A program made the translations under genes and the position numbers. A stretch of DNA of 64,000 nt from Arcobacter nitrofigilis DSM 7299 (GTDB lineage Bacteria > Campylobacterota > Campylobacteria > Campylobacterales > Arcobacteraceae), in contig NC_014166.1 in the NCBI RefSeq assembly GCF_000092245.1, positions 1,860,001 to 1,924,000 on the forward strand, given 5' to 3'. How positions within the stretch are numbered: the first letter of the stretch is position 1; each line of letters begins with the position of its first letter. The notes below the pieces were generated by a model. It had not been told where the DNA came from. It did not search any database and saw only the letters and a program-made list of their open reading frames with translations. Below, one piece after another: positions 22,644 to 36,033 of this stretch.

Positions 22644-24737
22644 TTATTTAATTTTTTTCCAAATACTCATTTGAGAAATTGTATGTTGATGTTTTCTTGC
22701 CGTCTCTTTTATCACAAAAGGTACATCTATCGTATCAAGCAGCTCAAATCTATCACTTAAATTTTCTTTTAAAGTATCTAAAGTTTTTACTTCTTTATTA
22801 TCTCTTACAAATCCACCTAACCAGTTTTGTTTTGGAGTATAATCTTCAAGCCAAGTATATGGACTCAAGATTACTAAAAGACCACCTTTATTTACCCTAT
22901 TTGGAATATCATCTAAGAATTTTTGTGGATAATATAATCTATCTATCAAGTTTGAACAAAATATCAAGTCATAGGCTGTATACATATCTTTTAAATTACA
23001 AGCATCACCTTGCATAAAAGTAACTCTCTCTTTTGTCTCTTCAAGTCCAAAGTCATCTAAAGCAACAGTTTTTTCTTCATATAATTCACCCTCTGTTGCA
23101 ACTTTATAAGTCAAGCTATCATATTTTTTTAGTTTTATTCCAACACTTATAAAGTTAGCACTAAAGTCTATTCCTAATACCTCATCAAATATCTTTCCTA
23201 GCTCAAATGAACTTCTTCCTACACTACAACCCAAATCAAGTGCTTTTTCTTTTTTTACACCTTCTAAATATGGTTTTAATACTTCAACCGAATTTTTAGG
23301 AAAGTTTTTAACTCCATAAATCTCTTCACCATAATGGAATTCACAATATTGAGAGATCTGCTCATCTGTTTCATATACATTATCATTTAGTTTAGTTCTA
23401 TATTCATTATCACTTTTTACATATCTAAATCCAGCATGTTGAAAGAAGTGCTTTCTAAAAGCATACCTTGCACTTCGTAAAGTCTCATTTCCTAAACTTA
23501 TAAATGAGCCACCTTTTATAAGGGCATGTCTATCATCAAAAGTAGGAGTTGTAAAGTCATCATATACAGGATGAGTTTCAAATCCATCAAGTGGATACAT
23601 AGGAGTTATACTCCATTGCCATACATTTCCAATCACGTCATAAAAATCGCCCATAGGATATTTATCTACTGGTGTTTGATTAAAATACTTTAATCCTATA
23701 TTTGCATCACACTCTTGTGCTTTAACATAATCATTTAATCTATAAAACTCATCTTCACTTGGAAGTCTTACTTCAAAACCAAGTTTTTCACTCTTATATT
23801 TACAAAATGCTTCTGCTTCATATACATTTATATCAACTGGGTAATTTAAAGGTAAAGGAACTACTCTATTTATCTCTCTTAAATAATACTTATCACCATC
23901 TTTTAACCAAAAAGTAGGCATTTTAGTTTGTGTAAAATCTAACCACTTCAATCCATCTTTACTAAAGTAATGTAGTTTATTATAACCACCCTCTTTTACA
24001 AACTCTAAAAACTCTCCATTTGATACCAGATACTTACTAGCTTCAAAATCTTTTATACTTGCTCTATGAAAGGCAAACTCATTATCCCAACCATAATAGT
24101 TTGGTTTTTTATGATCTTTTTGAAGTATAACTTCTCCACCTTCTACTTTTACTAATTCATTTTGTGGATAAGTTTGGCTTCTTTCATTGTTATATTCAAA
24201 TAACTCATCCTCTTTAAAATATTTTATGTCAAGTTCTCTTAATAATACAGATGATGTTTCTATATGGATATTTTCATGCTCTATTCCCATAAGTATAACC
24301 CACATAGGAGAATTCCAATTTATAGGTATAGAGAACTCAATACTATCAATAATATCCAATACTAAAGCTTTTACTTCATCTCTATATGCTTTTGTCTCTT
24401 CATATGTTGGCCATTGATAATTTTCATCATTTAAATCATCCCAACTCATTTCATCAACACCAATTGCAAATAGAGACTCAAGTGTTTTATTTACTCTTTT
24501 AGTTGTTATATTTGATACATTTAATTTATTCATAAAAAATGTAGCTGTATGTCCAAAATAAAATATTAAAGGATGTCTTAACCTATTTGGTTGTTCAAGT
24601 ATATGTTTCTTATCTTTTAATAAATCAAAAAGTTTTTCATCTAATTCATAAGTTCTTAAAAAATATTCTCTTATCTCTTTTCTTTTTTCTTCAACTGTTC
24701 CGTTATTTAAATCTATCGTTTTCCAATTATAATTCAT
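22644..24737 (-). CDS. ovoA: 5-histidylcysteine sulfoxide synthase / methyltransferase (OvoA)
   Basis: OvoA couples cysteine to histidine with O2 at a mononuclear iron, the first step to ovothiol. The 697-residue protein has the N-terminal DinB-like domain with His63 (GHTATFF) and His154/His158 (EHENIHIE) as the likely iron triad, a formylglycine-enzyme-like domain (GNVWQWSITPMYPLDG; GGSFISLGNETLRSARYAFR), and a C-terminal SAM methyltransferase (ALDLGCSVGRSS, LGIDFSANF). This three-domain layout is OvoA rather than EgtB. No OvoB lyase gene is adjacent. It is probably monocistronic. Confidence 0.93.
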   Translation of the reverse strand: MNYNWKTIDLNNGTVEEKRKEIREYFLRTYELDEKLFDLLKDKKHILEQPNRLRHPLIFYFGHTATFFMNKLNVSNITTKRVNKTLESLFAIGVDEMSWDDLNDENYQWPTYEETKAYRDEVKALVLDIIDSIEFSIPINWNSPMWVILMGIEHENIHIETSSVLLRELDIKYFKEDELFEYNNERSQTYPQNELVKVEGGEVILQKDHKKPNYYGWDNEFAFHRASIKDFEASKYLVSNGEFLEFVKEGGYNKLHYFSKDGLKWLDFTQTKMPTFWLKDGDKYYLREINRVVPLPLNYPVDINVYEAEAFCKYKSEKLGFEVRLPSEDEFYRLNDYVKAQECDANIGLKYFNQTPVDKYPMGDFYDVIGNVWQWSITPMYPLDGFETHPVYDDFTTPTFDDRHALIKGGSFISLGNETLRSARYAFRKHFFQHAGFRYVKSDNEYRTKLNDNVYETDEQISQYCEFHYGEEIYGVKNFPKNSVEVLKPYLEGVKKEKALDLGCSVGRSSFELGKIFDEVLGIDFSANFISVGIKLKKYDSLTYKVATEGELYEEKTVALDDFGLEETKERVTFMQGDACNLKDMYTAYDLIFCSNLIDRLYYPQKFLDDIPNRVNKGGLLVILSPYTWLEDYTPKQNWLGGFVRDNKEVKTLDTLKENLSDRFELLDTIDVPFVIKETARKHQHTISQMSIWKKIK

Positions 24738-24824
24738 ATCTACCCCAAATTTTTCTATCTTGTTATTCTATTTATATTTATTGTACATTTGTATACATAT
24801 AAAGACATCTCATACTTTGTAATA

Positions 24825-25895
24825 TTACTCTTCTATAATATCTGAAAGTTTTTTAGCCAATTCTAAAATCTCTTCTTTTTCATTTAAACCATCAATAAAT
24901 CTTTGTGGAATATTTTTCAAGCCAACTTGTGCACCAACTAAGGCACCAGTTAATATTGATCTAGCTTGATTTTGTCCTCCACCATTAAGTGCGTGTAATA
25001 TTGCACTTTCAAAATCATCATTAAATCTTGCCGATAAATAGTAACATGCTGGTAACATATGATAAATAGCACATGGCATTCCATATACTAAAGATACTTT
25101 CCAAGCTGGCTCTATTTTTATATCCTTGTCATTTGCTGCTTGTGCCATAAAAGATGGAGATAATAAAGCATCAGGGGAAGCAAATAAGCCTATATTTGAT
25201 GGATCTTTAGCACCATCTTTTGGTGGTTTTAAATTATCAGAAGTAACTGCATGAAAAGGCAATTCACCTTTTTTAACTAGTTTCATTAATTTTGTAGATA
25301 TATCTTTATCTAACTTTTCACCTTGAATTAACTGAGCTAGTACTGCGCCATATGCAACAGTCATTGAACCTACTATATCATCAACTTGTGTTAAAAAGGT
25401 ATTATGGGAAATACTTTTTGCTAACTCTTTTGTATTTAGTGCATATAGTACAGCAAGAGCTAAAGTTCTCTCTATACCTTCAGTTGTATCTGCTCTACTT
25501 CCCACTTTATCCCATGGTAGTTTTTGCTCTACTCTTTGTCTATATACTTCCCTAATAGATTGAGAAGTATAACCTCCAGGTCCATGTGTTGGAATACCAT
25601 CTATTTTTGTAAATAAATCTTCATCTAGTTTTTTGCAAAAATCTTCTTGATTATAAGCTTTATTTTCTATAAGAGATTTAATCATAAGCTTTAGAATATA
25701 TCCTGATTGGGATTGATTACCTTTTTCTTCATGTTCATGGTATCTTCCCTTTTTAGGAGTTGTATATGTTGTAATCCATTCACCATAATCTTTATGTTGT
25801 TCATCTAAATCATAATACCAATGTGGGCCTAATGCAATTGCATCACCAATAAATGCTCCTACTATGGCACCTTGTGCTCTATCTTTTAAGTTCAT
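24825..25895 (-). CDS. ADP-ribosylglycohydrolase-fold protein with altered metal sites
   Basis: The 356-residue protein has the all-helical ADP-ribosylglycohydrolase (DraG/ARH, crystallin J1) layout: GAIVGAFIGDAIALGPHWYYD at the N-terminus and GALVGAQVGLKNIPQRFIDGL at the C-terminus. In active members a TDDT-type motif and a GGDTDT motif bind two metal ions; here the matching places read GNQSQSGY (near 60) and GGGQNQARS (near 305), with Asp replaced by Gln. Classical hydrolase activity is therefore doubtful. It has its own near-consensus promoter bearing two palindromes. RBS AAAGGA precedes the ATG. Confidence 0.85.
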   Translation of the reverse strand: MNLKDRAQGAIVGAFIGDAIALGPHWYYDLDEQHKDYGEWITTYTTPKKGRYHEHEEKGNQSQSGYILKLMIKSLIENKAYNQEDFCKKLDEDLFTKIDGIPTHGPGGYTSQSIREVYRQRVEQKLPWDKVGSRADTTEGIERTLALAVLYALNTKELAKSISHNTFLTQVDDIVGSMTVAYGAVLAQLIQGEKLDKDISTKLMKLVKKGELPFHAVTSDNLKPPKDGAKDPSNIGLFASPDALLSPSFMAQAANDKDIKIEPAWKVSLVYGMPCAIYHMLPACYYLSARFNDDFESAILHALNGGGQNQARSILTGALVGAQVGLKNIPQRFIDGLNEKEEILELAKKLSDIIEE

Positions 25896-25910
25896 ATATA
25901 TCCTTTATTT

Positions 25911-25926
25911 ACTACTAATTAGTAAT
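25911..25926. promoter_or_regulatory. operator-like palindrome, downstream copy
   Basis: ACTACTAATTAGTAAT contains the perfect 12-bp palindrome TACTAATTAGTA (25913-25924) and lies just downstream of the predicted transcription start. It matches the second copy at 14 of 16 bases, 31 bp away. Confidence 0.6.
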
Positions 25927-25936
25927 TTATTTTAGA

Positions 25937-25965
25937 ATTATACTACTAACTAGTATTAAAGTCAA
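25937..25965 (-). promoter_or_regulatory. near-consensus sigma70 promoter for the ADP-ribosylglycohydrolase-like gene
   Basis: On the minus strand TTGACT (25965-25960) and TATAAT (25942-25937) are separated by exactly 17 bp, starting just beyond the rraA stop codon. The predicted start is near 25930, giving a leader of about 35 nt. One operator-like palindrome fills the spacer. Confidence 0.75.
25942..25957. promoter_or_regulatory. operator-like palindrome, spacer copy
   Basis: ACTACTAACTAGTATT holds TACTA-AC-TAGTA (25944-25955) between the -35 and -10 elements, where a bound protein would block RNA polymerase. The cognate regulator is not identified in the window. Confidence 0.6.
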
Positions 25966-25966
25966 G

Positions 25967-26446
25967 TTATATTAATAACTCTTTTGAAAGTATAACTCCA
26001 TCCATATCTGCATAAACAATATCACCTTGAGAAAAATTAATACCACAAAAAGAGACATCAACCCCTACTTCACCTTTTGTTTCAATAGCATATTTTCTAC
26101 TACAAGTTCCCCTTGCAAATAATATTAAATCCATATCTTTTGTAAAAAAAGTATCTCTAACATAACCATTTACGATTAATCCTTCATAGTTATTATCAAC
26201 TGCAAATTTTGCGAGGTTATCCCCTACTACTGCAAAATACTCATCTTCCACATCTACTACAACTATTTTACCTGTACCATCTACATCTTTTAACAAATTT
26301 TTAAGATCTGTATTATTTCTATCAAGCTTTATAGTTACTACTTCTCCATAGGCCTTTTGTTTTCCGCCATAATTTTTAAACTCATTATCTAATACATATA
26401 CTTTATCTGGGTGTGCATCACTTATATCTGCTGTAAAAAAATCCAT
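25967..26446 (-). CDS. rraA: RraA-family protein
   Basis: The 159-residue protein matches the RraA/HMG-aldolase fold: AVVGDNLAKFA with the GDN segment near 85-90, and GLIVNGYVRD with the Arg-Asp pair near 110-115. Members named RraA inhibit RNase E in E. coli, but many act as divalent-metal aldolases or oxaloacetate decarboxylases. The R/D residues used in catalysis are present, so an enzymatic role is possible. The gene sits 12 bp downstream of ltaE, in the hydrolase-ltaE-rraA minus-strand unit. Confidence 0.85.
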   Translation of the reverse strand: MDFFTADISDAHPDKVYVLDNEFKNYGGKQKAYGEVVTIKLDRNNTDLKNLLKDVDGTGKIVVVDVEDEYFAVVGDNLAKFAVDNNYEGLIVNGYVRDTFFTKDMDLILFARGTCSRKYAIETKGEVGVDVSFCGINFSQGDIVYADMDGVILSKELLI

Positions 26447-26458
26447 TTATTTTCCTTT

Positions 26459-27481
26459 TTATAATTTATTTTTAAAAAACTCTTTGAAAAGTTCTATTAC
26501 ATAATCAATATCTTCACTTGTAACATCTCTATGAGTTACAACTCTTAACTCATCATAAGTTCCTGATATATTTATACCTTTATTTTTTAAATAATTTATT
26601 AATAAATCTACATTAGTATCTTTTAATTCAATAAATACCATATTTGTATCATTTGATAAGATTTTTATTTGATTAATCTTTTCTAATTCTAAAGCTAATT
26701 TTTTTGCATTTTGATGATCGATTTGTAAATCTTTTATATTATTATCTAAAGCATAAGAACATGCAGCTGCTAAATAACCAGATTGTCTAAGTCCACCTCC
26801 TAGCATCTTTCTATATCTTCTAGCTTTATTTATAAACTCTTTACTTCCAACTAATACAGAACCGACAGGAGCACCTAAACCTTTTGAGATACATATTGAC
26901 ATAGAATCAAAACAAGCACTTATATCTTTAATATCTATATCTAAATCAATAACTGCATTAAAAACTCTTGCTCCATCAAGATGTAATAAAAGATTTTTAT
27001 CATGTGTAAATTTTCTTGCTTCTTGTAAATATGAAAGTGGCAAAACTTTTCCATCATGGGTATTTTCCAAACATAAAAGTTTAGTCATAGCAAAGTGAAA
27101 ATCATCAGGTTTTATTTTTTTATTTACCTTATTTAAATCCAAAGTTCCATCTATTTCAAACTCTATTGGTTGAGCAACTATTCCACCAAGAACAGAGGAA
27201 CCTCCTCCTTCATACTTAAAGATATGGGAATCTTGTCCACAAATATACTCTTCACCCCTTTGACAATGGGAAAGCATTGCTAATAAATTTGCTTGTGTAC
27301 CACTTGTAGCAAATAAGGCTGACTCTTTATTTGTAAGTCTTGCTACTTTTTCTTCAAGTGCATTTACACTTGGGTCTTCACCATATACATCATCTCCAAC
27401 TTGTGCATTAAACATATAATCTTTCATCTGCTTTGAGGGCATTGTAAAGGTATCACTTCTAAGTTCTATTATTTTATTCAT
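26459..27481 (-). CDS. ltaE: low-specificity L-threonine aldolase
   Basis: This PLP enzyme cleaves L-threonine or allo-threonine to glycine and acetaldehyde. The 340 residues show IELRSDTFTMPS, GEDPSVNALEEK, ATSGTQANLLA, HLDGARVFNA (PLP-binding Asp and Arg) and SICISKGLGAPVGS with the Schiff-base Lys near 200. The ATG at 27481 has AAAAAGGC upstream; an in-frame upstream start at 27502 would overlap the hydrolase gene. It is the middle gene of a three-gene unit with rraA. Confidence 0.92.
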   Translation of the reverse strand: MNKIIELRSDTFTMPSKQMKDYMFNAQVGDDVYGEDPSVNALEEKVARLTNKESALFATSGTQANLLAMLSHCQRGEEYICGQDSHIFKYEGGGSSVLGGIVAQPIEFEIDGTLDLNKVNKKIKPDDFHFAMTKLLCLENTHDGKVLPLSYLQEARKFTHDKNLLLHLDGARVFNAVIDLDIDIKDISACFDSMSICISKGLGAPVGSVLVGSKEFINKARRYRKMLGGGLRQSGYLAAACSYALDNNIKDLQIDHQNAKKLALELEKINQIKILSNDTNMVFIELKDTNVDLLINYLKNKGINISGTYDELRVVTHRDVTSEDIDYVIELFKEFFKNKL

Positions 27482-27492
27482 TTTGTGCCTTT

Positions 27493-28185
27493 TTAAAACC
27501 ACTGTATAATTTTCTCTTTTACCTCTTTTGTTCTTTCAAGTGGTAACATATGTGTTTGAGCTTCTATTTGTGTAACTTCAATATTTTTTGCTTTTAAAGA
27601 GAAGTTTTCCATAAATTTTGAACTAACAAGTCTATCTTCATTGGCATATAAAAAAGCTAAATTCAAATCACTATTTATAAGTTTTTCACTTAAATCTTCT
27701 CTTATTATTGTGGCCTTAAATTGAGAATAAAAAGCTTCTTCTCCTACATCTATATACATTTGAAGTATTAAATTTATTAGTTCTTCATCCCCTTGATTTT
27801 TTGGTTCCACTAAACTTAAAACCTTTTTTCTACTAAGACCTTTAAAGCCAAACTTTTTAGTTAGTTCAATAGTCTCTCTTCTTCTTTGGCACTCTATTTC
27901 ATTTAAGTTTGCAGGACTACAAGCAACTGCTAAAATTTTATTTATTCTATTTGGATACTTTAATCCAAAATAACATGAAATATAACCCCCAAGGGAAAAT
28001 CCCAAAAGATTTATTTTTTCATCTTTTATTTTATCATTTAGCACTTCTACTATTTCATCAAAACTATCTTTTTTTGGAATTTCAAGATGAATAAATTCAT
28101 AGGTATCATCAAAAAGAGGAATTAACCTACTCCATAGTTTTTCATCATTCATAAAGCCTGGTATCAAATATATTTTTCTTTTCAT
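27493..28185 (-). CDS. alpha/beta hydrolase
   Basis: The 230-residue protein has the alpha/beta hydrolase fold with IPGF near residue 8 (oxyanion hole), the nucleophile elbow GFSLGG (Ser64), an Asp in ANEDRLV near 180 and the catalytic His in AQTHMLPLE near 210. The size and pattern fit small esterases such as the BioH/MenH-like group. I chose the ATG at 28185; a GTG at 28194 is also in frame. It heads the operon with ltaE and rraA. The substrate is unknown. Confidence 0.82.
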   Translation of the reverse strand: MKRKIYLIPGFMNDEKLWSRLIPLFDDTYEFIHLEIPKKDSFDEIVEVLNDKIKDEKINLLGFSLGGYISCYFGLKYPNRINKILAVACSPANLNEIECQRRRETIELTKKFGFKGLSRKKVLSLVEPKNQGDEELINLILQMYIDVGEEAFYSQFKATIIREDLSEKLINSDLNLAFLYANEDRLVSSKFMENFSLKAKNIEVTQIEAQTHMLPLERTKEVKEKIIQWF

Positions 28186-28285
28186 AATATTCACTTATAT
28201 TTTTTAGCCTATTCTATCTAATAAAAGTTTTACATACTTTTAGCTATTCTAATGCCCTTTATAAAATGAACAAATAGGCAATTAA

Positions 28286-28696
28286 ATGAAAGTAGTAACA
28301 GGCGTTGTAGGAAACGATATACACGTTGTAGCAAATAGATTAATTGATCTCTCACTACAAGCAAGGGGATTTGAGGTATTTAACCTTGGGGTTAATACTT
28401 ATTTAGAAGAATTCTTTGATGCTGTAGTTGAAACCAATGCAGATGTACTTTTAATCTCTTCTTTAAATGGTGAAGCAGAAGGTTGGTGTAGAGAAGTAAA
28501 GATACTAAAATCAAAATATAAAAACTTAGATAATGTAGTTTTTATGATTGGTGGAAACTTAGTAGTTGGAACAGGTGATGCTTCAATTATCGTACCAAAA
28601 TTCAAAAAATTTGGTTTTGATTTAGTATTTCATCAAGTGGATTTAAATACAGGACTTGATGAATTAGAAAAATATTTAAAAACGAGAGAATCATGA
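28286..28696 (+). CDS. glutamate mutase-like sigma subunit, cobalamin-binding (GlmS/MutS)
   Basis: The 136-residue protein is a stand-alone B12-binding Rossmann domain like the small subunit of glutamate mutase. It begins VVTGVVGNDIHVVANRL: Asp11 and His13 of the DxHxxG motif are present, the His being the lower cobalt ligand, but the motif Gly is Ala16. ISSLNGEAEGW and FMIGGNLVVG match the other cobalamin-contacting loops. It overlaps the E subunit gene by 4 nt. The family is clear; that the substrate is glutamate is inferred. Confidence 0.85.
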   Translation: MKVVTGVVGNDIHVVANRLIDLSLQARGFEVFNLGVNTYLEEFFDAVVETNADVLLISSLNGEAEGWCREVKILKSKYKNLDNVVFMIGGNLVVGTGDASIIVPKFKKFGFDLVFHQVDLNTGLDELEKYLKTRES

Positions 28697-30057
28697 GTTT
28701 ATTACAAGAAGAACGAGAGATAATTTTAAGTAATGAATATGTAGAACATTTTGACTTTGCTGAGGTTGAAGAATTTATAAAAAATGCTTCAAAAGATCTA
28801 TTTATTTCACATAACTTTAGAACAAAAAACAAAATGCTAGTACAACCACGTGGTGGTTTTCCTACATATAACAAAATGTATGCACTTTATGAATTCTTTG
28901 TAAATGCAAATGTAGATGTATTGCCTTGTACTATTGATTCTAATACTAGATTAAATGACTATGCAACATCTAAAAAAATGTTAAGACTTTCAGAAGAGAG
29001 TGAAGTTGATATGTTAAATGGTTATCCCTTAGTTAACCATGGATATAGAACTACTAGAAAGATGATTACTCATTTTAACAAGCCTGTATCACTTAGACAT
29101 GGAACCCCAGATGCTAGACTACTAATTGAAACAGCTATTGCTTCAGGTATTTTTGAGATAGAGGGTGGACCAATCACTTATCTTTTACCCTACTCTAAAA
29201 ACTTTCCATTAGATAAAGCCTTTTTATATTGGAAATATGTTGAAAGAGTTTGTGCTAAATATTCAACACTGAATGAACCAATAAATAGAGAATCATTTGG
29301 ACCCCTAACTGCAACCTTAGTTCCTCCATGTATTACTATTGTAATTCAACTACTTGAGATGCTTTTATCTCTTGAAGAGGGAGTTAAATCATTTTCTGTA
29401 TCTTTTTCTCAAAGTGGAAGTGTAAACCAAGATATTGTAACTGGTGCAGTTATAAGAAAACTTGCAAAACATTATGCCAATGAGATTGGCTGTGGAGATG
29501 CTGAGATTCATTTAGTATATCACCAATGGATGGGTGCTTTTCCTATGGATCAAAACTTCTCATCTCAACTTATCTCTTTGTCAACTGCAATTGCAGCTAT
29601 GGTTGGTGCGGATAAGATTATTACAAAAACAAAACAAGAGGCTTCTGGAATTCCTACAAAAGAAGCGAATGCAGAAACAGTTGCAAATACCCAATATCTT
29701 CTTAGAATTTTAAATGGTCTTCCAAATGTAGTAGATGTAGAAGAAGAAGAAAATCTAACTCTAGAAGTTAAAGCTATCATGGAAGCTATATTCAATGACA
29801 GTGCTGATACTTTATGGAGAAAAGCCTTTAATAGTATTAAAAATGGAATAATAGATGTACCTTTTTCTCCACACATTATAAACCACAATGAAATGATTAC
29901 TATACGAGATGTAAACAAAAATATTAGAATAATGAAAAGAGGAAATGTTCCAATTCCAGACAAGTGTTTTGAATATGAAAAATCAAAATGTGATTTAAAA
30001 AAAGATACTACATCAATAGTAAATGATATTATCCATGATATAGGAATTATGCAATGA
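28693..30057 (+). CDS. glutamate mutase-like epsilon subunit (GlmE/MutE)
   Basis: The 454-residue catalytic TIM-barrel subunit would interconvert L-glutamate and 3-methylaspartate by a radical mechanism with adenosylcobalamin. Conserved Arg-bearing segments are visible: VQPRGGFPTYNK (near 50), VSLRHGTPDARLL (near 135) and RESFGPLTATLVPP, plus SFSQSGSVNQDI and VYHQWMGAFPMDQ. It is slightly shorter than clostridial GlmE (about 480). Stop and start overlap by 4 nt with both neighbours. The gene order S-E-L differs from the S-L-E order common in clostridia. Confidence 0.87.
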   Translation: MSLLQEEREIILSNEYVEHFDFAEVEEFIKNASKDLFISHNFRTKNKMLVQPRGGFPTYNKMYALYEFFVNANVDVLPCTIDSNTRLNDYATSKKMLRLSEESEVDMLNGYPLVNHGYRTTRKMITHFNKPVSLRHGTPDARLLIETAIASGIFEIEGGPITYLLPYSKNFPLDKAFLYWKYVERVCAKYSTLNEPINRESFGPLTATLVPPCITIVIQLLEMLLSLEEGVKSFSVSFSQSGSVNQDIVTGAVIRKLAKHYANEIGCGDAEIHLVYHQWMGAFPMDQNFSSQLISLSTAIAAMVGADKIITKTKQEASGIPTKEANAETVANTQYLLRILNGLPNVVDVEEEENLTLEVKAIMEAIFNDSADTLWRKAFNSIKNGIIDVPFSPHIINHNEMITIRDVNKNIRIMKRGNVPIPDKCFEYEKSKCDLKKDTTSIVNDIIHDIGIMQ

Positions 30058-31244
30058 GCCAATTAAATAACAAACTACTAATAGATGTAGGAAGTACATA
30101 TTTTAAAGTTAGTTCATCAAAGGGTGTTGAACAACACTTTAGAGACTTCAATAAAGATATATACGATGACTTAACATATAAGTGTGGAGATACAATTAAA
30201 ACATATGAAAAAGAGAATGTTTATATTTGTTCATCTGCAAATGGGGGATTAAGCACTCTTATCATTGGTGTTACAAACTCTTTTTCACTTAAATATGCAA
30301 CAAATATTGCCTTTAATTCTGGAATAAACATTATTGATACTGTTTTATACCAAGATATAGAAACATCTTCAATTCCAAGTGATTTGATAGATGTTGTTAT
30401 TGTTGTAGGTGGAATAGATTCTGTTTCAAATATTTTTGGGAAAGAGTTATTTAGCTATTTAGAGAAAATTACTTACTCAAATATTGTATATGTAGGAAGT
30501 AGTAAGGATAGTGAAACTCTACAAAAAAATATAGAAAACCTAGTTATTTTGCCAAATGTAATTGATGATAAACTGCATATTGTAGAAGAGCACTTAAAAG
30601 AGTATTTAACAAACCTTTATCAAGCAGATATTATGGGTAAAGAGGATATCAAAAATCTTTATGAAATAACATCAAATCAAATATACTCTACTCCATATAT
30701 AGTAAATAAAACTTTGCCATTTATTACAACAAAATTCTCAGTTGTTGATCCTTATATTCTTATAGATATTGGAGGAGCAACTACTGATATTCATTACTCT
30801 AAAGACTTAGTTGATGATAATTTAGTTACTACAAATGAGTATGATAGACTTGTATTTAAAAAACTTGGAGTTTTTAAATCAAAAGAATCTTTGATATTTA
30901 GTGCAAAAAACAATGAGTTTGTATATGAGCTATTATCACACTTAAAAGTTACAGAAAATATTTTTGAAGAACAAAGTGAAAAGGCTTTAAGAATATTAAT
31001 GCAACTTGCGATATTCTTAGTTTTATGTAAAGTATCACATTATAGAAAAGCCTATGTAAACTTAAAACTATTATCATTAAATAGTTTAGTTTTAACAGGT
31101 GGTATAACAAAAGTTTTATCACAAGAAGAGATTGAAGATATCATCTCATTTTTTTATAAAAAAATTCTAAATTCAAACCATAACCCAAGTGTTGTAATGG
31201 ATTCAAATTACGACATTTGGACTCTTGGTTTAACTCAAAAATAA
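30054..31244 (+). CDS. MutL/GlmL-like mutase reactivating factor
   Basis: The 396-residue protein has an actin-like ATPase fold: LLIDVGSTYFKVS at residues 8-20 (phosphate 1), VIVVGGIDSVSN, and YILIDIGGATTDIHYS near 235 (second Asp-Gly motif), then LVLTGGITKVL near the C-terminus. MutL/GlmL proteins are thought to reactivate glutamate mutase by exchanging damaged cobalamin. It is shorter than typical GlmL (about 460). It overlaps the E subunit by 4 nt, which fits a chaperone for that enzyme. Confidence 0.82.
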   Translation: MSQLNNKLLIDVGSTYFKVSSSKGVEQHFRDFNKDIYDDLTYKCGDTIKTYEKENVYICSSANGGLSTLIIGVTNSFSLKYATNIAFNSGINIIDTVLYQDIETSSIPSDLIDVVIVVGGIDSVSNIFGKELFSYLEKITYSNIVYVGSSKDSETLQKNIENLVILPNVIDDKLHIVEEHLKEYLTNLYQADIMGKEDIKNLYEITSNQIYSTPYIVNKTLPFITTKFSVVDPYILIDIGGATTDIHYSKDLVDDNLVTTNEYDRLVFKKLGVFKSKESLIFSAKNNEFVYELLSHLKVTENIFEEQSEKALRILMQLAIFLVLCKVSHYRKAYVNLKLLSLNSLVLTGGITKVLSQEEIEDIISFFYKKILNSNHNPSVVMDSNYDIWTLGLTQK

Positions 31245-31254
31245 AGGATAAAAG

Positions 31255-32832
31255 ATGTCTATAAATTGTATTAGAAGATTAATTGAAGATGCAGCAATCT
31301 CACATCCACAAAAAAATGCTTTAATCCTAAATGAAAAAAGTTTAACATATAAAGAGTTATTAACAAAAGTAAATCAAGTAGCTTTTTATCTAAATGAGTT
31401 AGATTTGCCAAAAGGTAGTAGAGTTGGTATTTACTCAAATAAATGTATGGAACAAGTTATTGCTATACTTGCTATTTTATCAACTGATTATGTTCTTGTA
31501 CCTCTAACAAAACTACTTAAACCAGATCAAGTTAAATATATAATAAAAGATTGTGACATAAAATGTATCATAACAGATAAGATAAAAGAAAATAGCATTG
31601 AAGATATTGATTTTAATGGACATCTTATTTCATATATTACAGTACACAAAGATGTTCCTTCTTTTGAAGAAATTTTCAAATATTACAACAAACCATATAT
31701 CTGTGAAATAAATGGACATAGTAATGCTGTAATTACCTACTCTTTTGGTATAACTGGAACTCCAAAAGGAATTGTTATATCTCATAGAAACCTAATAGAT
31801 AGTGCAAGGGTTGTCTCACAATACTTAAGTTTAAAAGAAGATGACATAATATCTGGAATTTTACTATTTAATTTAGATTATGGATTGAACCAAATTTTTT
31901 GTTCTTTATATAAAAGAGCAACTTTAGCTTTACATAGATTTATTCTAGCAAGTGATTTTTTCAATCACTTGATAAACGACAATGTAACAGTTATTCCACT
32001 TATGCCAATTAGTATTACTCAAATGTTTGATGAAGATTTACATAGACTTCCTAGTGTGGAGTTATTAAGTAATATAAGAATTATCACCTCTTCAGGTGGT
32101 AACTTAACACCTAAAATGTTAAATGATGTACAAAAATATTTTACAAATGCAAAAATATTTTCAATGCATGGTTTAACGGAAGCATTTAGATCAACATATT
32201 TAGAACCAAGTCAAATAAATATAAGACCTAACTCTATAGGAAAAGCTATTCCAGATGTTGAATTATATGTTATTGATGAAAATGGAAATGAGTGTGAACC
32301 AAGAGTCGTAGGTGAACTAATTCACAGAGGTGGATATATCTACAAAGGTTTTTGGAATGCTCCTATTGAAACAAAAGAGAGATTTAAATCAGTCAATATA
32401 CTTAAAAATGTAATTAATCTTGAGGGACAATTAAGGGATGAAGTTGTTGTAAAAACTGGAGATTTTGTTTATAAAGATGAAGAGGGATATTTATACTTTG
32501 TATCAAGACAAGATGATATGATTAAAACAAGAGGATTTAGAGTAAGTCCTTATGAAATTGAATCTGTTGCAATAAATAATATACCACAAATAGAACAATG
32601 TGCAGTATTTTCAATAGAAAATGCAGAGATTGAAGAAGAGATTGTTTTTGTATATAGTGCAAAAAGTGAACTATCTTCTAAAGAGATAACTTTTGAATTA
32701 AAAAAACATCTAGCATCATATATGATTCCTTTAAGAATTATTTATAAAAAATCACTACCTTTAATTCCTAGTGATAAAAATAAAGTTAACAAAAACCAAC
32801 TTAGAGCTGAATTACTTGATTCTTTAAAATAG
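31255..32832 (+). CDS. AMP-forming adenylation enzyme / acyl-CoA ligase
   Basis: The 525-residue protein belongs to the ANL superfamily, which activates carboxylates as acyl-AMP for transfer to CoA or a carrier thiol. Seen: P-loop YSFGITGTPKGIVISH (near 160; degenerate against YTSGTTG), SMHGLTEAFR (A5), VVKTGDFVYKDEEGYLYF and RQDDMIKTRGFRVSPYEIE (A7-A8) and a C-terminal NKVNKNQL with the A10 Lys. It has no attached carrier or condensation domain. It sits 10 bp after the mutase reactivase with RBS AAAGGA, so it is probably functionally linked to the mutase. The substrate is unknown. Confidence 0.88.
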   Translation: MSINCIRRLIEDAAISHPQKNALILNEKSLTYKELLTKVNQVAFYLNELDLPKGSRVGIYSNKCMEQVIAILAILSTDYVLVPLTKLLKPDQVKYIIKDCDIKCIITDKIKENSIEDIDFNGHLISYITVHKDVPSFEEIFKYYNKPYICEINGHSNAVITYSFGITGTPKGIVISHRNLIDSARVVSQYLSLKEDDIISGILLFNLDYGLNQIFCSLYKRATLALHRFILASDFFNHLINDNVTVIPLMPISITQMFDEDLHRLPSVELLSNIRIITSSGGNLTPKMLNDVQKYFTNAKIFSMHGLTEAFRSTYLEPSQINIRPNSIGKAIPDVELYVIDENGNECEPRVVGELIHRGGYIYKGFWNAPIETKERFKSVNILKNVINLEGQLRDEVVVKTGDFVYKDEEGYLYFVSRQDDMIKTRGFRVSPYEIESVAINNIPQIEQCAVFSIENAEIEEEIVFVYSAKSELSSKEITFELKKHLASYMIPLRIIYKKSLPLIPSDKNKVNKNQLRAELLDSLK

Positions 32833-32835
32833 ATT

Positions 32836-32876
32836 TTATCTAATACTTAAGATAAAGTATTAGATAAATAATTTTT
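32836..32876 (+). terminator. terminator of the mutase-ligase operon
   Basis: TTATCTAATACTT (32836-32848) and AAGTATTAGATAA (32855-32867) form a perfect 13-bp stem with loop AAGATA, followed by ATAATTTTT. It marks the end of the four-gene operon. Confidence 0.75.
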
Positions 32877-32892
32877 GAAAATTTTAAAAATT

Positions 32893-32906
32893 TTGACTAA
32901 AATCAA
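32893..32906. promoter_or_regulatory. candidate Crp/Fnr-family site upstream of cytochrome c
   Basis: TTGAC-TAAA-ATCAA fits the TTGAN-N4-NTCAA half-site arrangement and lies 60 bp upstream of the first tandem cytochrome c gene, a position suited to activation under oxygen limitation or nitrogen-oxide exposure. Confidence 0.5.
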
Positions 32907-32965
32907 TTAAATTTACACTTTTTTATCTTATAATACATAAATTAAAAAATCAAAAGGATAAAATA

Positions 32966-33241
32966 ATGAAAAAAATTCTACTTTTAACTTCAATCTTAGC
33001 ATGTGTAGCCTTTGCTAATCCATTTGCAAAATGTGTAGGTTGTCATGGGGCAAATGGAGAAAAAGTTGCCTTAGGAAAATCAAAAATAATTAAAGATATG
33101 ACTAAAGCTGAAATAGTTACAGCTTTAAAAGGTTATAAAGACGGAACTTATGGTGGACCAATGAAAGGCTTAATGAAAGGTCAAGTTACTTCTTTAAGTG
33201 ATGCTGACATTCAAGCAATCGCAGACAAAATCGGAAAATAA
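32966..33241 (+). CDS. small periplasmic monoheme cytochrome c (class I), copy 1
   Basis: The 91-residue protein has a Sec signal peptide (cleavage after AFA, near residue 17), the haem site CVGCHG (near 23-28) and a Met-containing stretch GGPMKGLMKGQV that supplies the distal ligand. It resembles c553-type cytochromes that shuttle electrons to cbb3 oxidase or periplasmic reductases. It is 147 bp upstream of a close paralogue on the same strand. RBS AAAGGA precedes the ATG. An Fnr-like site lies upstream. Confidence 0.9.
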   Translation: MKKILLLTSILACVAFANPFAKCVGCHGANGEKVALGKSKIIKDMTKAEIVTALKGYKDGTYGGPMKGLMKGQVTSLSDADIQAIADKIGK

Positions 33242-33245
33242 TCAA

Positions 33246-33269
33246 AGTAAGAAGAGCTCTCTTCTTACT
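33246..33269 (+). terminator. 11-bp hairpin after cytochrome c copy 1
   Basis: AGTAAGAAGAG (33246-33256) pairs perfectly with CTCTTCTTACT (33259-33269). No T-run follows, so it may stabilise the mRNA end or terminate weakly before the second cytochrome gene. Confidence 0.5.
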
Positions 33270-33388
33270 AAAATAATGTTACTCTTCTCCTCAATTTAAT
33301 TTTTCTTAACGAATTATTAACAAACTAATCAACTTAAAAGTTAAAGTACTATAATATTTTAATTGTAAATTAATAATAAGGGATAACA

Positions 33389-33664
33389 ATGAAAAAAATA
33401 ATACTTCTTAGTACAATTTTAGCATGTGCACTATTTGCTGATCCATATGCAAAATGTGTGGCTTGTCATGGGGCAAATGGAGAAAAAGCTGCAATGGGAA
33501 AATCTAAAATTATAAAAGATATGACAAAAGCTGAATTTATTGCGGCACTAAAAGGTTATAAAGATGGAACTTATGGGGGAGCTTTAAAAGGTTTAATGGC
33601 TGGACAAGTTACTTCTTTAAGTGATGCTGATATGGAAGCACTTGCAAATCAAATTGTTAAATAA
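33389..33664 (+). CDS. small periplasmic monoheme cytochrome c (class I), copy 2
   Basis: This 91-residue paralogue of the gene just upstream has the same length, signal peptide (ending LFA), haem site CVACHG and distal Met region (GGALKGLMAGQV). The first stretch after the haem (ANGEKAAMGKSKIIKDM) is nearly the same as in copy 1, pointing to tandem duplication. Each copy has its own leader, so separate regulation is likely; no Fnr-like box is seen before this one. Confidence 0.9.
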   Translation: MKKIILLSTILACALFADPYAKCVACHGANGEKAAMGKSKIIKDMTKAEFIAALKGYKDGTYGGALKGLMAGQVTSLSDADMEALANQIVK

Positions 33665-33738
33665 TTTTAACTAAATTGATGCTTTTAAAGGTTTTTTTTG
33701 TAATATAATAACAAAGAAAGTTTTTAAAGGCATTGGTT

Positions 33739-36033
33739 TTGAAATTAAGTTATAAAGTTAAATTTTTATTCTTCCACTTTTTATCCGTATTTATTTTAAT
33801 AAGTGCAATTTATATTTACGATTCTATAGCTAATAAATCAAACATAACTAATATCTCAAATAAAAACTTTAATGTTGTTTTTGATGAAAAACAAAGATAT
33901 ATAACTAATCTCATTAATTCAAATAAAATTATTTTAAATACACTATCAAGTAACCAAATTTTTCAAAATTATATTAATAATAATGAAAATGTAAAAAATA
34001 GTGAAAATTTATTTTCAGCACTTATTAATACAGATTCTCTTGCTTTTCAATTAAGCTATATTGATTTAGATGGTAATGAAAAAATAAAAATAAATAAAGA
34101 CCTTTTTTCAGAAAATAAACTTGTAACAAAAACACCTAACAATGAATTAAAGAATATCTCTAATAGTACTTTTTTTAAAACTTTTGTTAATCTAGATAAT
34201 GAAGTTTTTGGTATTTCAAATATAAATTTAAATATTGACAATGAAAAGACACCTAAAATAAAAATTGCCTCTGTAAAAGTTGCTAAAACTATTTTTGACA
34301 AATCTAATAATAAAAAAGGTTATATTATCCTGAATATTCGTATAAATGACCTTTTCTCATATTTAAAAAAAGATGAATTTTTTAACATATATATAATTTC
34401 AAGTAAAGGTGAAATTATATTTCCAAATGATAATAATATGGGAGTTTATTCAAAAAACTTCAAAGAGCATATGACAAATTCAAACTTTAAAAAAGTAGAT
34501 ATAAACTCAATTTTAAATAATGAAGATTTTTCAAATGGAAAATACTTTTCAAAAAAAATAACAAGCTTTAATAAGGGTCAAAATATAACACTTTTATTTG
34601 AATCAAAATACAATGATTTAAAAAAAGATTTGGATAAACAAAAGTTACAACTTATTTATGCACTTATTGCAATATCAATTTTATCTCTTCCTCTTGTATT
34701 ATATTTTGCAGGTATTCCAGAAAGGCTTGAGAAAAAGATAATCAAACAATTTATAACAGATGATTTAACTAAATTACCAAATTTGGAACACTTATTAAGT
34801 GATTTAAAAGAAAAAGAGTTTAAAAATTGTCTAATAATACTATTAAATATAACAAACGATAAAAATATTCAAAATATATATGGATATAATGTTACAAAAG
34901 AATTATTAAAAAGCTGTGCGCAATTCTTCTCAGACTACAAACAAAAAGACAAAAGATTTTTAAAAATATATAAAGTAAAACACAATGTTTTTGCTTTTAA
35001 ATATTTATATAAAAATAGAGAAATACTAGATGAATCTTTAAGCAAAATCCAAAACTTGTTAGAGAATAAAGAGTTTTTAATACTAAATAAGTATGAGATA
35101 ACTATAGATACGACTATTGGTGTAAGTGGTATAGATATACTAAATAACAATATTAATGAGTTAAAAGAAGCTGAGATAGCTTTAGATGATGCCTTACAAT
35201 TAAATCATGACATCTCTATTTATAATAGTTCCCATGTTGAAAATCTTGAAAAACATAAATTAAATATTGAAAAGATAAAAGTTATAAAAGATGCCATTTT
35301 AAACAATAATGTAATTATAGCTTTTCAACCTATTTTTAATAACTTTCAAGGAAAAGTTGAAAAATATGAAGCCCTTGTAAGACTGAAATATAAAGATAGA
35401 ATATTTTATCCTGATGAATTTTTACAAATCTCTAAAAAAATTAAAAAATATAAAACCTTGACAAAAATAATTATAGAAAAAACATTTGAATTTTTCAAAG
35501 ATAAAGATTTTGAGTTTTCTATTAATTTAAGTATGGAAGATATCGTTGATAATGAAATTAGAGAATATCTTTTTAAAGAAATTGCTAAATACAATTTCCA
35601 AAATAGACTTGTAATTGAACTTGTTGAAACAGAGGCTATAAATAACTATGAAGCATTTACAAGTTTTATAAAAGAGATAAAAAAATTAAATTGTAAAATT
35701 GCAATAGATGATTTTGGTAGTGGATATTCAAACTATGATTATATAATTAAGCTTTCTGATTATATAGATTACTTAAAAATTGATGGAACACTAATTACAG
35801 ATATAGATACAAATAAAAAGACTCAGCTTCTTGTAGGTACTTTAAAATTCTTATGTGATAGTTTAAAAATAAAAACAATTGCAGAATATGTAGAAAATAA
35901 AGAGATTTTTGAATTTATTAAAGCAATGGATATCTCTTATTCTCAAGGATATTATATAGGTAAACCAGAATTTGAACTAACAGAGAATGAGTGGATTAAA
36001 GATGAAAAGGAAAAAGATTTAAACTACTTCTAA
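33739..36033 (+). CDS. membrane GGDEF-EAL protein, probable c-di-GMP phosphodiesterase
   Basis: The protein of about 764 residues has TM1 (about 9-28), a long periplasmic sensor part, TM2 (about 305-325), a degenerate GGDEF domain (TDDLTKLPNLEHLL is kept but no GG[DE]EF signature is found) and a C-terminal EAL domain with the catalytic set YEALVRL, NLS, ELVETE, IDDFGSGYSN, LKIDG, AEYVE and SQGYYIGKP. It should hydrolyse c-di-GMP. The TTG at 33739 is better spaced from AAAGG than the TTG at 33733. Its 3' end overlaps a GGDEF gene on the other strand by 15 bp. Confidence 0.88.
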   Translation: MKLSYKVKFLFFHFLSVFILISAIYIYDSIANKSNITNISNKNFNVVFDEKQRYITNLINSNKIILNTLSSNQIFQNYINNNENVKNSENLFSALINTDSLAFQLSYIDLDGNEKIKINKDLFSENKLVTKTPNNELKNISNSTFFKTFVNLDNEVFGISNINLNIDNEKTPKIKIASVKVAKTIFDKSNNKKGYIILNIRINDLFSYLKKDEFFNIYIISSKGEIIFPNDNNMGVYSKNFKEHMTNSNFKKVDINSILNNEDFSNGKYFSKKITSFNKGQNITLLFESKYNDLKKDLDKQKLQLIYALIAISILSLPLVLYFAGIPERLEKKIIKQFITDDLTKLPNLEHLLSDLKEKEFKNCLIILLNITNDKNIQNIYGYNVTKELLKSCAQFFSDYKQKDKRFLKIYKVKHNVFAFKYLYKNREILDESLSKIQNLLENKEFLILNKYEITIDTTIGVSGIDILNNNINELKEAEIALDDALQLNHDISIYNSSHVENLEKHKLNIEKIKVIKDAILNNNVIIAFQPIFNNFQGKVEKYEALVRLKYKDRIFYPDEFLQISKKIKKYKTLTKIIIEKTFEFFKDKDFEFSINLSMEDIVDNEIREYLFKEIAKYNFQNRLVIELVETEAINNYEAFTSFIKEIKKLNCKIAIDDFGSGYSNYDYIIKLSDYIDYLKIDGTLITDIDTNKKTQLLVGTLKFLCDSLKIKTIAEYVENKEIFEFIKAMDISYSQGYYIGKPEFELTENEWIKDEKEKDLNYF

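Follow-up and report, generated by a model that had tools for sequence, protein, structure and literature searches.

In the reference glutamate mutase operons of Peptoclostridium and a Salmonella plasmid, the genes for the small subunit (S), the reactivating ATPase (L) and the catalytic subunit (E) are followed by that for an ammonia-lyase (order S-L-E-ammonia-lyase), and the operon of Gemmobacter reads S-E-lyase-coenzyme A (CoA) transferase-CoA lyase. In the clostridial mutase, glutamate is held by residues R66/R100/R149, E171 and Y177 (PMC9545868). A route through glutamate mutase to 2-ketobutyrate, reported from labelling in 1962 (Abramsky), is one of the nine routes listed as known in PMC7476758. 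Here, we describe a stretch of 64,000 nucleotides of Arcobacter nitrofigilis DSM 7299 (NC_014166.1, positions 1,860,001 to 1,924,000; "the window"), in which a four-gene operon encodes a glutamate mutase, its reactivase and a homologue of ANL-fold ligases (LIG), with a gene for an RraA-type protein lying divergent from it. The set may be a B12-dependent module that turns glutamate into 2-oxobutyrate, with LIG as a pseudo-ligase that assists the mutase or acts as its sensor; we offer this reading tentatively, as falling somewhat short of an even chance. Its parts are as follows (positions in the window).

28286–28696, + strand: glutamate mutase small subunit S, B12-binding, 136 aa (Pfam B12-binding, 5.8e-12; NCBIfam PRK02261)
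28693–30057, + strand: glutamate mutase catalytic subunit E, 454 aa (Pfam Met_asp_mut_E, 393 bits; alignment to PDB 6h9e/1cb7)
30054–31244, + strand: MutL/GlmL-type reactivating ATPase L, short form, 396 aa (Pfam MutL, 96 bits)
31255–32832, + strand: LIG, ANL-fold ligase homologue, probable pseudo-ligase, 525 aa (Pfam AMP-binding, 210 bits)
25967–26446, − strand: RraA-type class II aldolase/2-oxoacid decarboxylase, divergent from the operon (Pfam RraA-like, 114 bits)

The operon at 28286–32832 is real. Its genes all lie on the + strand, spaced by 4-base overlaps or a 10-base gap, and the open reading frames and the Pfam/NCBIfam matches agree with the initial annotation, made from the sequence alone, which had described four tightly coupled genes for S, E, a MutL-like reactivase and an adenylate-forming ligase. 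Furthermore, the arrangement is not due to chance, since its order is kept across several Campylobacterota families and in Gammaproteobacteria. That annotation was also right that the set differs from the textbook glutamate fermentation pathway: the order S-E-L departs from the common S-L-E of the Peptoclostridium and Salmonella plasmid operons, and the methylaspartate ammonia-lyase, whose absence beside the mutase it had noted, was found nowhere in the whole 3.19-Mb, one-contig genome by a search with PF07476 (mesaconase was outside this search). Because the reference operons run S-L-E-lyase or S-E-lyase, the lyase-free S-E-L-LIG arrangement is a different one. No Rfam match to a B12 riboswitch was obtained within 24000–36000. 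Two tandem small c-type cytochrome genes (32966–33241 and 33389–33664, + strand) stand directly 3' of LIG; they are present in most Arcobacteraceae loci and not in other families.

The active site of the mutase is well preserved. In the alignment to PDB 6h9e/1cb7, the arginine claw R53/R86/R135 of E, together with E157, Y163, Y167, K312 and E316, corresponds to clostridial R66/R100/R149, E171, Y177, Y181, K326 and E330, and all of these residues are conserved in 119/119 orthologues. Because the glutamate-binding residues are present throughout, S and E very likely convert glutamate to 3-methylaspartate. K326 and E330 are the adenosyl ribose contacts of the clostridial enzyme. In the DxHxxG motif of S, D11 and H13 are invariant and the G is replaced by A in 111/111 orthologues; S scores above the cut-off of NCBIfam PRK02261 (166 vs 110 bits) and below that of TIGR01501 (98 vs 136 bits), and E reaches 374 against the TIGR01503 cut-off of 390. 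The three ATPase motifs of L are invariant in 100/100 sequences.

To what extent do the genes travel together? Among 397 Campylobacterota genomes sampled for chosen protein families, the E subunit is encoded in 57, which belong to 20 genera; these E subunits are of a single type and 69–91% identical to that of the window. A LIG homologue (E ≤ 1e-100) is present in 56 of these 57 genomes versus 0/340 others, and an RraA-type protein in 57/57 versus 4/340. The lone mutase genome without LIG (G355) is a draft in which an unrelated gene follows L, and four further genomes with a stand-alone S-E pair carry LIG elsewhere. Fisher tests gave p < 1e-60; the counts outweigh this value because the genomes are related and not independent. 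The conserved S-E-L-ligase neighbourhood anticipated for Campylobacterota thus exists, and the earlier framing as a pathway not obvious in Arcobacteraceae proved too narrow.

The same set was found by a GTDB scan in Gammaproteobacteria, in records of Alteromonadaceae Bs31, Hahellaceae, Oceanospirillaceae and an uncultured Vibrio; within one gammaproteobacterial order, 9 of the 390 genomes have it. These E subunits are 80–87% identical to that of the window, compared with ~74% for Sulfurospirillum, and branch among the Campylobacterota sequences in a tree rooted at the midpoint only; this closeness and the tree position together suggest that the gammaproteobacterial set was acquired by transfer from Campylobacterota. 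A dicarboxylate aminotransferase of the AspC type is found in 11/12 of the gammaproteobacterial loci; in 10 it adjoins RraA, and in the eleventh it lies close by. The alignment allows its pyridoxal phosphate (PLP) lysine and its two substrate arginines to be recognised. The Streptomyces and Methylobacter plasmid mutases, considered as close relatives, were set aside at only 26–33% identity and in other contexts. No prior description of the gene set was found in the literature searched on glutamate mutase in Arcobacter, Sulfurospirillum or Campylobacterota.

The RraA-type gene is the divergent neighbour of the operon in most loci. R97 and D98 of its product are invariant, and an acidic residue, D76, lies 21 positions before R97; the R-D pair with D or E at this distance is kept in 75/75 copies here and, as E, in 12/12 gammaproteobacterial copies. 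Relatives of RraA decarboxylate oxaloacetate through an enolate intermediate that is also used in the aldol reaction (PMC5065237). This protein and the gammaproteobacterial aminotransferase had been missed in the initial annotation. Between RraA and S, the window holds a gene for a PLP enzyme of the GntG/threonine-aldolase family (26459–27502, − strand), which is not there in the other loci examined. Farther out lies an OvoA-type ovothiol synthase gene with FGE-sulfatase and methyltransferase domains (22644–24737, − strand), and in Arcobacteraceae such a gene often forms one block with RraA, ChaC-like and ComEC-like genes. OvoA was rejected as the true partner of RraA, as several mutase genomes lack it and several mutase-free genomes have it.

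From these parts, the following route can be proposed. S and E would convert L-glutamate to 3-methylaspartate, as their conserved active-site residues indicate, and L, like its family, would keep the mutase active with ATP. An aspartate-type aminotransferase would then yield 3-methyloxaloacetate (in Gammaproteobacteria the one linked to the set, in Campylobacterota presumably a housekeeping enzyme), which the RraA-type enzyme would decarboxylate to 2-oxobutyrate and CO2, as its relatives do with oxaloacetate. The net conversion of 2-oxoglutarate to 2-oxobutyrate and CO2 would feed isoleucine or propionyl-CoA without threonine. LIG would enter as an ANL-fold protein that binds an amino acid resembling 3-methylaspartate and probably an adenosine group, with no usual formation of an adenylate from ATP. 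Every functional step of this module is deduced from sequence. We favor a keto-acid route over activation and transfer because RraA co-occurs with the mutase and the gammaproteobacterial loci add an aminotransferase. In the literature searched, no gene set was found for the glutamate-mutase isoleucine route of 1962.

Could LIG instead be an active ligase? As a VinN-like enzyme, it would adenylate 3-methylaspartate and transfer it to CoA, the fatty-acid acyl carrier protein (ACP) or another acceptor, thereby starting an unknown product. We consider this unlikely, and the regions of LIG that bear on it are the following.

31876–32190, + strand: amino-acid pocket, from D208 (VinN D230) to R312 (VinN R331)
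31741–31770, + strand: degenerate phosphate loop, residues 163–172, SFGITGTPKG (canonical TSGSTGKPKG)
32782–32784, + strand: position of the A10 catalytic lysine, K510

The pocket speaks for such an enzyme. Residues D208, Y209, N212, T278, S280, M304 and R312 are invariant in 96/96 orthologues, and D208, S280 and R312 are the equivalents of VinN D230, S299 and R331, with residue roles in VinN taken from a review; the pocket differs from that of VinN in the changes F231 to Y and K330 to F. When the PDB was searched with the pocket region alone, VinN was the top match (1.5e-7), followed by an engineered beta-phenylalanine enzyme (4e-4). The predicted structure of LIG (pLDDT 88) has the ANL fold and matched hundreds of ANL structures, the top one being 3wv5, VinN with 3-methylaspartate (Z 48.3, 2.1 Å over 378 residues), with another ligase tied with VinN at Z 47.8. 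In addition, the closest relatives outside the family, ligases of exosortase type and similar ones, adjoin an ACP gene, and two of three also a PLP decarboxylase gene. On the other hand, the pocket D and R are common to these relatives, which points to a class of aspartate-like or beta-amino-acid substrates rather than to 3-methylaspartate alone. Two arrangements among sequences of this kind deserve mention in their own right. An exosortase-A ligase with a PLP decarboxylase and an ACP nearby (L192:7992–10792, L193:7489–9029) resembles the VinN-VinO-VinL logic and suggests that this ligase family loads an aspartate-like acid that is decarboxylated on the carrier. In Sinorhizobium meliloti, an asnB-ACP-ligase-nadE-like cluster (L194:3726–8531), whose ligase has a VinN-type TECKR motif, is possibly an uncharacterised carrier system for an aspartate-type beta-amino acid.

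The ATP site argues against an active ligase: it is degenerate in 96/96 orthologues. Their phosphate loop reads YSFG(L/S/V/A/I)(S/T/D/E/Q)GxP(K/R/N)G, whereas close relatives have YTSGSTGKPKG. The AMP-binding signature (PS00455) matches 0/96 LIG orthologues, whereas all 3 close relatives carry it, as do 17/21 of the remaining AMP-binding proteins in four of these genomes. Serine or threonine is found at position 164 in 0/96 and at position 166 in only 38/96 orthologues, and K171 is replaced by R or N in 37. The A10 lysine, which is required for adenylation, is kept in the window's protein and in 57/94 orthologues and lost in 37/94, and 15 orthologues have lost both lysines. As an internal control for this decay, the other four of the five parts of the set show intact active sites. 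The expected ribose contacts D403 and R418 are also invariant; with the pocket kept and the phosphate loop degenerate, this indicates that the amino-acid site is retained, the adenosine site probably so, and the ATP-phosphate site decayed. LIG is thus probably not a normal adenylating ligase. The earlier label "AMP ligase" holds for the fold only, and the proposal of a stand-alone ligase acting on 3-methylaspartate keeps its VinN-like pocket while its chemistry of activation and attachment becomes doubtful with the degenerate loop.

Nor did the carrier protein once considered as a companion of the ligase appear. The mutase loci showed no ACP gene, and in five of 20 mutase genomes there is just one PP-binding match, which presumably represents the fatty-acid ACP (the A. 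nitrofigilis genome, G000, has 9); a dedicated carrier was set aside as an improbable partner. The A. nitrofigilis genome also encodes, outside the window, a multi-gene nonribosomal peptide synthetase cluster (G000:C1:2177727–2204421) with several AMP-binding and PP-binding matches and open reading frames of up to 3241 aa, which might make use of 3-methylaspartate, though in no strain but this one.

If LIG does not ligate, with what does it work? Of four genomes with a split operon, three have L and LIG close to each other and away from S-E: adjacent in one and with two inserted genes between them in two more. This suggests that the reactivase, and not the pathway, is what LIG is tied to, although inherited gene order could also explain the proximity. 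Most likely, LIG is an accessory or sensor of the mutase together with L; the association of a pseudo-ligase with a B12 mutase is what is most unusual about the set. A bolder combination is that LIG is a repurposed adenylation enzyme without ATP-dependent ligation, which binds 3-methylaspartate or glutamate together with an adenosine group such as 5'-deoxyadenosine or AMP and, with L, guards, repairs or gates the mutase, and that the genes behind the 1962 isoleucine route are those of this set as a whole; taken jointly, we regard these two claims as doubtful.

Several observations weigh against the 2-oxobutyrate module. Threonine deaminase (TIGR01127) is present in 40/40 genomes tested, whether or not they have the mutase. 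An obligatory isoleucine route is therefore rejected, and the module would provide 2-oxobutyrate from another source that isoleucine synthesis does not need. The conserved neighbours of RraA in Arcobacteraceae include ChaC-like and OvoA-type genes, from which RraA may have other ties, and its decarboxylation of 3-methyloxaloacetate is argued by analogy with relatives. The Campylobacterota aminotransferase serving the route is assumed; a search of 60 Campylobacterota genomes for the gammaproteobacterial AspC type found none, with a query lacking a positive control in that phylum. What LIG does is likewise inferred, and because K171 and K510 are both retained in 35/94 orthologues, part of the family may have residual ligase activity.

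A further possibility, less likely than an active ligase, is that RraA acts as an aldolase with pyruvate or 2-oxobutyrate as donor and that the aminotransferase aminates the product to an unusual amino acid, in the manner of nikkomycin-type logic, 3-methylaspartate being made for a keto-acid aldol route. Relatives of RraA are indeed class II pyruvate aldolases with the shared enolate intermediate (PMC5065237), and the aminotransferase is at hand in the gammaproteobacterial loci; however, no gene for aldehyde formation or export is conserved in the loci. Ordinary methylaspartate-pathway fermentation of glutamate with an unlinked or unrecognised ammonia-lyase is very improbable, since the weak PF07476 matches (22–40 bits) in 7/20 mutase genomes are of the size expected of other enolase-superfamily enzymes and recur in 11/14 control genomes, the complete A. 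nitrofigilis genome has none, and operons of the characterised type have the lyase adjoining the mutase.

If the module operates as proposed, it would supply genes for a route that leads to 2-oxobutyrate and isoleucine and has been known since 1962 only from labelling. By our own accounting from textbook pathways, the ATP and NADPH of threonine synthesis would be spared, a saving that could matter to vent and sediment autotrophs that make 2-oxoglutarate directly. A ligase fold would have lost its ATP loop and become permanently associated with a B12 radical enzyme, in a set common to many marine and sediment bacteria, and annotation pipelines would name LIG an acyl-CoA ligase, probably wrongly.

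Compared with known systems, the set shares with clostridial GlmES and GlmL (Clostridium, Peptoclostridium) the subunits, the substrate and ribose contacts and the ATPase motifs of L, but it is ~36% identical, is ordered S-E-L, has a shorter L and no ammonia-lyase, and is linked to LIG and RraA. The vicenistatin system of Streptomyces (VinN/VinH-VinI) likewise combines a glutamate mutase with a stand-alone ANL protein carrying the D/S/M/R pocket residues for 3-methylaspartate, whereas the present loci have a degenerate ATP loop, RraA and an aminotransferase as partners, and no linked stand-alone ACP or decarboxylase. LIG is closest, outside its own family, to the TIGR03098 ligases of exosortase-A/ACP clusters (31–36% identity in alignment; 427 bits, under the 592 cut-off), with which it has a TEAFRSTYL motif in common; unlike LIG, these retain the TSGSTGKPKG loop intact and lie beside an ACP and often (two of three) a PLP decarboxylase. 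The RraA-type protein has the fold of the HMG/CHA aldolase-RraA family and its R-D catalytic pair with the acidic residue 21 positions before; here, this residue is D or E, and the link is to glutamate mutase rather than to aromatic degradation. Finally, the proposed module would share with the glutamate-mutase isoleucine route of Abramsky (1962), which is known from labelling only, the use of 3-methylaspartate as the source of 2-oxobutyrate.

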